Source of the DNA: a virus
Length of the DNA stretch: 42,365 nucleotides
Strand: one strand, 5' to 3'
Virus record (IMG/VR): IMGVR_UViG_3300037294_000660
Coordinates: 1-42,365 of that record
In this document: one piece after another, positions 8,732 to 10,512 of the stretch
How positions within the stretch are numbered: the stretch's first letter is position 1
Layout of the letters: each line of letters opens with the position of its first letter
Made by a program: the position numbers and the translations under genes
Notes under the pieces: model-generated
The model's database searches: none
Told to the model about the DNA's origin: nothing
What the model saw: the letters and a program-made list of their open reading frames with translations, nothing else

Positions 8732-8761
8732 AAAAACCATTAGCCGCGGCTAATGGTTTTT
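8732..8761 (-). terminator. Rho-independent terminator, moron unit / late block A boundary
   Basis: Perfect 30-bp palindrome. The stem half is AAAAACCATTAGCCG and it ends in T/A tracts on both strands. It follows the XRE gene (stop at 8782) and precedes late promoter A, so it separates the moron from the tail operon. Its CCATT..AATGG arms resemble the terminator at 9543-9570. Confidence 0.85.
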
Positions 8762-8781
8762 CATAAAAGTAAACTTATAGG

Positions 8782-9093
8782 TTAATTTTTAGGCAGTTTA
8801 TCAGGACGACGGCCCAAGGTTTCCATTGCTTTTTCCATTGCAATATTCAAATCAGTTTTACTTTCTTTATCTTCAAAAAAGAAATTTACATTTATGGCTT
8901 TGGCAATTATCAAGAAATTTTTTAAATCAGGCGTGAATTTAGCAGAAAAAAAGCGAGATACATTAGATCGTATTAAACCCGTTTCGTCAGCTATTTGCTG
9001 CTGTGTAATTCCTTTTTGTTGACGGATTTCGTCAAGTAAAAAAACGAGCAACTTCCATTGTTGCTCGTTTGTGTTTTGGTTTTCGTTACTCAT
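8782..9093 (-). CDS. XRE-family helix-turn-helix regulator
   Basis: 103-aa DNA-binding protein. Residues about 15-70 form a Cro/CI-type HTH: EIRQQKGITQQQIADETGL, then IRSNVSRFFSAKFTPDLKNF, and then a hydrophobic helix. No C-terminal peptidase domain is present. It is the second gene of a two-gene unit with the 88-aa gene (3-bp gap), bounded by a palindromic operator/promoter upstream and a strong terminator downstream. It probably autoregulates through GTATCATATTTGATAC (9460-9475). The pair could be an antitoxin-like or exclusion moron, but no toxin signature is visible in the partner. Confidence 0.8.
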   Translation of the reverse strand: MSNENQNTNEQQWKLLVFLLDEIRQQKGITQQQIADETGLIRSNVSRFFSAKFTPDLKNFLIIAKAINVNFFFEDKESKTDLNIAMEKAMETLGRRPDKLPKN

Positions 9094-9096
9094 TAT

Positions 9097-9363
9097 CTAT
9101 TTATTTTCAACTTCAACAATCCATTCATTAACTTGATCTTCAATTTGTCTTGAAATAATAGAAAACAAAGCTACATCTTTGGCAGAACCTTCTAATTCAG
9201 TCGCATCATCATAATCAGGCATATTTGAAGTTGTTGCTGAAAAAGTTTTGTATTCTCCTAAAAAGTATAATTCTACTGTAATTTTTTTATGACCATGGCC
9301 AGCAGTTAAAGATTGAGTGTAATTTATTTCTAACTCTGAGTTTAAAAAATTGATAGTTGTCAT
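9097..9363 (-). CDS. Hypothetical protein, moron unit with XRE regulator
   Basis: 88-aa acidic protein with no recognised domain. It has alternating hydrophobic residues in the middle (HKKITVELYFLGEYKTFSA) and a helical C-terminus (DVALFSIISRQIEDQVNEW). No signal peptide or membrane segment is visible. It is the first gene of a two-gene unit with an XRE regulator and has its own promoter. The ATG at 9363 was chosen because the leader from the TATCTTTG box ends there. Function unknown; a toxin or accessory lysogeny role is possible but unsupported. Confidence 0.7.
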   Translation of the reverse strand: MTTINFLNSELEINYTQSLTAGHGHKKITVELYFLGEYKTFSATTSNMPDYDDATELEGSAKDVALFSIISRQIEDQVNEWIVEVENK

Positions 9364-9434
9364 AATAATTTTTGCCGTATTTCGCAGTTGCCGCCTGCTT
9401 CTAATTTCTTTCAGCTTATTTGCTTTCCGATATT

Positions 9435-9475
9435 CAAAGATACAACTATATTCTATTTAGTATCATATTTGATAC
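9435..9475 (-). promoter_or_regulatory. Promoter with palindromic operator for the 88-aa/XRE unit
   Basis: TATCTTTG (9442-9435) is a perfect TAnnTTTG -7 box. About 17 nt upstream lies the perfect 6-4-6 palindrome GTATCA-TATT-TGATAC (9460-9475), which covers the -33 position. This is the expected layout for autorepression by the XRE protein. Confidence 0.7.
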
Positions 9476-9542
9476 ATTTATTTTTAATTTTACTGTAAAC
9501 TTTAACATTTTAAGCGGTTTTATTGACTTTATAAGACATAAA

Positions 9543-9570
9543 AAAACCATTCACGACGGTGAATGGTTTT
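9543..9570 (-). terminator. Rho-independent terminator after the 81-aa gene
   Basis: A 12-bp perfect stem, AAAACCATTCAC, pairs with GTGAATGGTTTT around a GACG loop, ending in T/A runs. It lies 27 bp past the stop of the 81-aa gene. Confidence 0.85.
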
Positions 9571-9596: not shown

Positions 9597-9842
9597 TTAA
9601 ATTCTTTTAAAGTACCAGGAGAAAACAAGCGGTTCAGATTCCTTTGGTTCAAACCCTAATTCAATCAGCGCCTCATAAACAACATGTTCATCAACAGATT
9701 GAAAAGGAATAATTCGCTGGAAGTTTTCGACTAGTTTGTCTGTAGTATATTCAAACTCTTTGCTCAATACCTCTGCAGGGGTATAACTCTGGGAAATGAG
9801 TTTTTTTACTTCGTTCTTATAATTTAAAATGAATATTTCCAT
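9597..9842 (-). CDS. Hypothetical 81-aa protein downstream of a structured RNA leader
   Basis: Small, mostly helical acidic protein (MEIFILNYKNEVKKLISQ start; SWYFKRI end). No known domain. It is the only gene between the structured RNA (9845-9998) and the terminator at 9543-9570, so it forms its own transcription unit. Either the RNA is the 5' leader controlling this gene or it is an independent small RNA. The start follows an A/T-rich leader without a clear Shine-Dalgarno, normal for Bacteroidetes. Function unknown. Confidence 0.65.
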   Translation of the reverse strand: MEIFILNYKNEVKKLISQSYTPAEVLSKEFEYTTDKLVENFQRIIPFQSVDEHVVYEALIELGFEPKESEPLVFSWYFKRI

Positions 9843-9844
9843 AG

Positions 9845-9998
9845 TAAAATCAGTTAAATAGGGAGCGCCCTTTGCGGTTGACCAACCATTACGAGGAATG
9901 ATTATCGGACGGTTTTTTTTCCCGCTACCCGAATCCTGAGAACTCCCTATTTAAACTAATTATAGGGGGAACTCCTCGTATTTTAAAATGATTGGTCA
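9845..9998 (-). ncRNA. Structured RNA / leader with pseudoknot-like long-range pairing
   Basis: Two long inverted repeats interleave. (A) 9854-9865 (TTAAATAGGGAG on +) pairs perfectly with 9943-9954. (B) 9879-9897 (TGACCAACCATT then ACGAGGA) pairs with 9973-9980 and 9987-9998 (TCCTCGTA and AATGATTGGTCA, 11/12) with a bulge. A further hairpin, CCCTAT/ATAGGG, lies inside. Because A and B interleave, they form a pseudoknot or two alternative folds. A perfect -7 box, TATATTTG (10009-10002), on the minus strand places the transcript start at the first base of stem B. Candidate families to test are Flavo-1 and 6S RNA; I cannot assign one. It may also be a cis-leader for the 81-aa gene. Confidence 0.6.
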
Positions 9999-10001
9999 GA
10001 G

Positions 10002-10009
10002 CAAATATA
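10002..10009 (-). promoter_or_regulatory. -7 box for the structured RNA
   Basis: TATATTTG on the minus strand is a perfect TAnnTTTG match, ending about 4-7 nt before the first paired base of the RNA. No clear TTG -33 box was found at the normal spacing. Confidence 0.55.
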
Positions 10010-10017
10010 AGGTATTA

Positions 10018-10512
10018 TTACATATTGAGTAATTTTTTCTTTTCAGATTCAAATTCCTCTTTATTCAAAGTGCCATCAGACAGGAGTTCTTTCAACTTTT
10101 TTAATTTATCGTATTTATCAACAGAGGCAGCAGAAGTGGGATTATTGGTTTCTTTACAATTTTTTATTTCGCAAGTAGCGATTGCCTCTTCAATTTCTAA
10201 AGAATAATTGGTGATATTACCACCACCAACAATAAAAAAAACCTTTTCGGCACCCTTAAATTTTACTACCTTAATTTTTTTAATAATTACGTTTAATCCA
10301 GCATAAGCTGATCCAATTTGGATTGCACTTCCTGCCATCCATCCAGACATTTTTAAATAAACGAACGTACCCTGTAAACCAGAACCACGTCCAAGGGTGA
10401 TTGAGTCTCCTTCTTTATAAGTGACATCATTTGCAGCCTTATACTCTTCTACTCTCCCTTGTCCATTGGCAAAAGCAGAGACAAACAATAATACTAACGC
10501 TATTTTTTTCAT
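10018..10512 (-). CDS. Secreted protein with C-terminal SHOCT-like domain
   Basis: 164-aa protein using the ATG at 10512; an upstream extension would precede the signal peptide and overlap the previous gene. Residues 1-19 are a Sec signal peptide (MKKIALVLLFVSAFANGQ, Bacteroidetes-style cleavage before Q/G). The middle is beta-rich and Gly-rich. The C-terminal ~30 residues (KYDKLKKLKELLSDGTLNKE and the following EEFE) match a SHOCT short helical domain. It lies between the terminator of late block B and the structured RNA. A TATATTTA box upstream could be its own promoter. This suggests a lysogenic-conversion moron that alters the host periplasm or envelope, not a virion protein. That role is inferred. 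Confidence 0.72.
   Translation of the reverse strand: MKKIALVLLFVSAFANGQGRVEEYKAANDVTYKEGDSITLGRGSGLQGTFVYLKMSGWMAGSAIQIGSAYAGLNVIIKKIKVVKFKGAEKVFFIVGGGNITNYSLEIEEAIATCEIKNCKETNNPTSAASVDKYDKLKKLKELLSDGTLNKEEFESEKKKLLNM

Follow-up and report, generated by a model that had tools for sequence, protein, structure and literature searches.

Locus and layout of the RNA

The stretch of DNA analysed here (the window) is a viral record of 42,365 bases with the gene content of a temperate flavobacterial siphophage. Its structural genes lie on the minus strand, with the tape measure gene at 8201-4833 and the endolysin gene at 13758-13345. On the same strand, an RNA of about 148 nt (about 10001-9854) occupies the gap between a signal-peptide SHOCT-domain gene (10512-10018), which sits in a moron slot and forms one flank of the RNA, and an 81-aa gene downstream (9597-9842). 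The SHOCT-domain gene has a counterpart in most of the relatives described below, not in all. The 81-aa protein belongs to no Pfam family and no PHROG family. AlphaFold predicts a confident small fold of mixed helices and strands for it, and a fold search with this model gave no significant match, the best non-significant ones being viral primase domains.

The promoter box TATATTTG (10002-10009, minus strand) is of the Bacteroidota -7 type TAnnTTTG and has a counterpart at the same place in all relatives; the window promoter shows no clear TTG at -33. An earlier note made from the sequence had this box begin the transcript at the first paired base. The box is present at 10009-10002, whereas the first helix, P1, starts 4 nt later. 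The 5′ arm of the transcript (9998-9971) contains two paired strands with 6 unpaired bases between them: UGACCAAUCAUU (9987-9998), which pairs with 9890-9879 to form helix P1, and UACGAGGAGU (9971-9980), which pairs with 9899-9890 to form helix P2. In position they are comparable to the upstream a1 site of phage P1 and to a b1-type site, respectively. Their common partner is the internal strand AUUCCUCGUAAUGGUUGGUCA (9879-9899), the proposed antisense arm a′/b′. Strand b, UUAAAUAGGGAGU (9942-9954), pairs with strand d, GCUCCCUAUUUAA (9854-9866), in a 13-bp helix that includes one G-U and forms the outer stem of a c4-like core. Helices P1/P2 and b:d interleave, which makes the fold a pseudoknot. 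The same two pairings had been described, as interleaved, in the earlier note, the shorter as 12 bp (9854-9865 with 9943-9954) and the longer as about 19 bp with a bulge (9879-9897 with 9973-9998). We recover both on the minus strand, the former longer by the G-U-containing extension and the latter as 9998-9971 with 9899-9879.

A bulged hairpin, UCGG[GUA]GCGG-loop-CCGU-CCGA (9905-9932), completes the core, and its strict form occurs once in the 42-kb window, exactly inside the RNA. The linker ACCGCAAAGGGC (9867-9878, conserved as ACCGYAAA), which contains ACCGCAAA, lies between helix P1 and strand d, and its CC pairs with a GG ahead of the bulged hairpin, as in the Rfam RNA c4-2. Strand d ends 12 nt short of the ATG of the 81-aa gene (9842), and an intrinsic terminator, AAAACCATTCACCGTCGTGAATGGTTTT-TTTATG (9543-9570), ends the short transcript after that gene. 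Further along the minus strand (8733-9570), a cassette encoding an 88-aa protein and an XRE regulator, with its own TATCTTTG box, lies between three intrinsic terminators; it resembles a moron that came in later and duplicated the terminator.

Relatives and covariation

Folding energies favour the minus strand (minimum free energy -47.3 kcal/mol, z -3.1, none of 200 shuffles as good), with a z score of only -1.4 for the plus strand. When the window RNA was shuffled, 4 of 400 sequences formed perfect helices that interleave, one of 10 bp or more and one of 6 bp or more; for the relative L171, none of 400 shuffles equalled its interleaved 12 and 9 bp. This energy and shuffle support is modest, and conservation is far stronger evidence.

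Nine relatives were found, all in Flavobacterium phages or prophages. The first homologue, L004, was reached through the 81-aa protein; L036, L037, L054, L060 and L082 through a DNA pattern; L169 and L171 through a profile of the 81-aa protein; and L178 and L180 via a neighbouring 173-aa protein. L054, in Flavobacterium kayseriense, is left out of the count because it is nearly identical to L004; L060 lies in a Flavobacterium MAG. Eight of the nine are recognized by a covariance model (L004, L036, L037, L060, L082, L178, L180 and L169), and L171 by its architecture alone. The model R1 was built from the window, L004, L036, L037 and L060, so that their scores of 153, 185, 186, 181 and 186 bits, respectively, are matches by construction; those of L082 (166 bits), L178 (158 bits), L180 (128 bits) and L169 (75 bits) are independent. 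Across genome samples of the genus, family and class, a match was found in 1 of 300, 1 of 400 and 1 of 400 genomes, each time in the centre genome itself, and the RNA is therefore rare.

Several other leads were discarded. A 16-mer of the 5′ arm used as a probe found chance sites only, the single hairpin match in a Streptomyces hpf leader (L057) was at chance level, the matches in L078-L081 fell inside coding sequence and that in L186 was a chance match within a helicase gene.

Covariation supports both helices, the check that the earlier note had proposed. For the nested helices, compared over seven sequences, 98.5% of cells are paired, four pairs are doubly changed and none of 500 shuffles reaches the score. 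For b:d and the core, over nine sequences, 93.1% are paired with six doubly changed pairs, and again no shuffle of 500 does as well; doubly changed cells number 9, against 1.8 expected, and pairing falls to about 53% or less when the partner is slid by one column. Helix P2 carries compensatory changes at two pairs or more. Because covariation keeps both helices, the pseudoknot is real, and because several changes are G-U pairs on the minus strand only, the strand is fixed. L171 keeps the layout with stems unrelated in sequence (UGCAAGAAUGUUU/GAACAUUCUUGCA and GAGUUUACCU/GGGUAAACUC).

Genetic context

Three contexts show that RNA and 81-aa gene are not bound to one another. In L169, a terminator abuts the promoter, the RNA follows with no open reading frame inside and a second terminator stands right behind it; the next gene encodes a 171-aa secreted protein. 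In L171 the gene downstream of the RNA encodes 78 aa, and in L005 the 81-aa gene is present without the RNA. L169 and L171 rule out the 81-aa gene as a fixed partner. The placement of the RNA in front of that gene, on which the earlier note had remarked, holds for the window, and the tie is loose. Terminators directly ahead of the promoter also occur in L060, L171 and L178. All RNA-bearing relatives have a counterpart of the intrinsic terminator after the 81-aa gene. Between the RNA and the open reading frame that follows it, no terminator stands in eight of the nine relatives. The slot that houses the RNA lies ahead of the tail genes and is variable, with varying moron-like secreted genes.

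Likely kinship to c4-type RNAs

A search of the window with all Rfam families returned no match, in line with the earlier note, which could name no RNA with certainty. Its two candidates, Flavo-1 and 6S, fell away, with no match even at E 10 in 9780-10060. HEARO/OMEGA RNA (RF02033), suspected from the GGGTAGCGGG core, had no Rfam match either, and the same was true of the podophage matches described below. The covariance model for C4 (RF01695) matched neither the window nor the relatives, and that for c4-2 (RF02944) found nothing in the window at E 10, which counts against a c4-type reading; given this lack of matches, the window RNA cannot be placed cleanly in either Rfam family. L171, by contrast with the window, matches c4-2 over its full length, and the kinship of this one member to c4-2 is established: it scores 27.1 bits (E 8e-4 in 241 nt, 2e-5 in the contig), a value that, like the 9.7 bits of L169, does not reach the c4-2 gathering score of 41 bits. 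R2, a model of the Bacteroidota core, finds neither phage P1 c4, L171 nor Vibrio phage VP5, which also counts against a c4-type reading. The earlier description of the RNA as unassigned fits the Rfam result; it missed the likely kinship, a layout shared with the phage c4 and c4-2 antisense RNAs.

The c4-2 RNA, a phage RNA, is in Rfam clan CL00128, of which we take C4 to be the other member. In its consensus, the outer stem is followed by UAU-GGG, then by a GGuAgC hairpin capped with a tetraloop, a second element and finally CCC-UAAA; UAU-GGG and CCC-UAAA form an inner step, and an ACC-UAAA precedes the closing stem. In the window the corresponding places are taken by strand b, then AGG, the hairpin UCGGGUAGCGGG, the antisense arm and lastly ACCGCAAA, as mapped by eye; for L171 the mapping was made by covariance model. 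The window and its relatives share with c4-2 the outer stem, the GG/CC pair, the GGGUAGC hairpin and CC-UAAA, with covariation. Unlike c4-2, the window RNA has a longer outer stem, an A-rich 9-nt loop at the hairpin tip and, in place of the second hairpin, a strand whose partner is the 5′ end of the transcript.

C4 is processed out of an operon transcript and represses an antirepressor operon in trans. No antirepressor was identified beside the window RNA. In the phage P1 record, the order is promoters, a1, b1, C4 RNA, a2, b2 and a 73-aa icd, and C4 is complementary to the upstream a1 and b1 and to the downstream a2 and b2. Promoter, upstream complementary sites, RNA, short spacer and small open reading frame likewise follow one another in the window. 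The window RNA differs from C4 of phages P1 and P7 in lacking any sequence match, in its Bacteroidota host and in its downstream genes. C4 is described as an antisense repressor (Citron and Schuster 1990, in the passages of PMC8201110 and PMC2864571 that cite it).

The antisense arm of the window RNA is complementary to the 5′ leader over 12 and 10 bp, and an equivalent exists in every member, as one 13-bp block in L171. These stretches of 10-12 bp each (19-23 bp in all) compare with 7-8 nt in phage P1, and self-complementarity so much longer than the phage P1 sites counts against a c4-type reading. Complementarity of the arm to the start region of the next gene, the counterpart of a2 in phage P1, reached p 0.003 in L004 and p 0.02 in L082. 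It was suggestive in L036 (p 0.06) and also in L171, where 8 bp cover the start codon (p 0.12); all p values are uncorrected for the eleven sequences tested. The pairing in L004, L082 and L171 favours a c4-type reading. No such start-codon target is seen in the window (p 0.34), L037, L060, L178, L180 and L169, which again counts against it.

The bulged hairpin in other phage leaders

The pattern CGGGTAGCGGG..CCGTCCG also matched podophage leaders between scaffold and capsid genes. Among 84 leaders, some found by the pattern itself and most through the capsid protein, 24 carry the hairpin CGG[GNA]R..Y-CCG, against 0.5% of shuffled leaders, and 17 carry a permuted form. The podophage hairpin stems covary (GCGG/CCGU, GCUC/GAGU and ACCC/GGGU). 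The podophages with the hairpin include relatives of the very abundant pelagiphage HTVC010P. HTVC010P-like podophages (L083-L098, L101, L152, L016, L018, L034, L042 and L046) have a conserved leader RNA immediately ahead of the major capsid gene; it contains two bulged hairpins, of which one is permuted, and in several of these phages an H-type pseudoknot as well. Vibrio phage VP5 (L191, NC_005891.1, 5838-6004) has a sigma-70 promoter within an inverted repeat; both forms of the bulged hairpin come next, ahead of the major head protein gene, and that gene has a terminator behind it. In the podophage loci L083-L161, the stretch 400-650 nt past the capsid stop is strongly enriched in sense intrinsic terminators, with 21 of them in 12.5 kb; elsewhere their density is 0.02-0.10 per kb. 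The cluster is reminiscent of T7, which has a terminator after its capsid gene.

None of the podophage and VP5 leaders tested is known to Rfam. Like the window RNA, the HTVC010P-like and VP5 leaders carry the bulged hairpin right behind a promoter; unlike it, podophage leaders usually have two hairpins around an H-type pseudoknot and precede a capsid gene. The full models R1 and R2 found no match in these leaders beyond the hairpin. Its recurrence may reflect either common descent or convergence. A broader reading, which seems doubtful to us, is that phage leader RNAs of a wide and so far undescribed class share the bulged GGGUAGC...UCC hairpin as a functional module and act on the transcription machinery right behind structural-gene promoters; such a class would take in flavobacterial siphophages, HTVC010P-like and VP5-like podophages and c4-type RNAs.

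Interpretation

With the structure, its conservation, the promoter box and the terminator established, we favour a reading of the RNA as a divergent c4-type antisense RNA, at roughly even odds (about 0.5), and we infer its antisense action, target and biological role. Its probable role is to control the small transcript at whose head it stands. It would be a promoter-driven, pseudoknotted RNA of about 148 nt on the c4-type antisense plan, in which the outer stem b:d encloses the GG/CC pair and the bulged GGGUAGC hairpin. Next comes an antisense arm, whose complement lies right at the start of the same transcript, much as that of C4 lies in a1/b1 of phage P1. Driven by a promoter of its own within the moron slot ahead of the tail genes, the RNA would mask or modulate the transcript of the following small open reading frame through this arm, and transcription would stop at the terminator after that frame. 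The arm may also act in trans on the matching transcript of related incoming phages.

The terminators admit a different account, in which RNA polymerase, bound during elongation by the nascent RNA, would pass the terminators that lie between this promoter and the tail genes. The model for this is HK022 put, a two-stem RNA that binds the β′ zinc-binding domain of RNA polymerase. Like put, the window RNA is a phage RNA directly behind a promoter, with internal loops in its stem-loops and terminators downstream. A sense terminator separates the RNA from the tail genes in every RNA-bearing relative (in L169 there is also the one directly behind the RNA), whereas L005/L184, the sole RNA-less phage compared, has none in that interval; in the window, no TAnnTTTG box separates the 158-aa gene from the last terminator; and the podophage leaders with the bulged hairpin also lead to a terminator 400-650 nt past the capsid gene. 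However, the head region of the window has further strong terminators with no such RNA before them, and moron cassettes bring a promoter and a terminator anyway. The sequence and the internal loop of HK022 putL also differ, which rules out identity with put, and put has no interleaved long helices. We consider put-like antitermination unlikely.

Two further accounts concern what follows the RNA. A free-standing moron non-coding RNA that in trans either targets a host factor or serves as an anti-defence decoy, the adjacent open reading frame being a passenger, would suit L169, in which terminator, promoter, RNA and terminator stand together with no frame inside, as well as the terminators directly before the promoter in L060, L171 and L178 and the variable moron-like secreted genes of the slot. 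The uninterrupted frame behind the RNA in eight of nine relatives speaks against it, as does the fact that the data point to no host target or defence system, and we hold it to be quite unlikely. Equally improbable in our view is a cis-acting 5′ leader that does no more than stabilize its mRNA or adjust how the next gene is translated, for instance as a two-state switch between a:b and b:d. The RNA does stand at the 5′ end of the transcript and runs straight into the 81-aa gene in most relatives, and strand b of L004 can pair locally (-15.4 kcal/mol) or with d (-13.8 kcal/mol). In the window, however, the local hairpin is weak (-9.0 against -18.0 kcal/mol for b:d), the following gene varies among relatives and L169 has nothing to translate ahead of its terminator. 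The earlier note had offered a pseudoknot or a two-state switch; the pseudoknot stands, and the switch is possible but unproven.

If the c4-type reading holds, the architecture of these RNAs would extend to Bacteroidota phages, where Rfam misses it. The pseudoknot, proven by covariation and flanked by a promoter and a terminator that are both defined, lends itself to tests in a non-pathogenic host. The hairpin before podophage capsid genes hints that phage late operons commonly begin with a structured RNA that current libraries miss.
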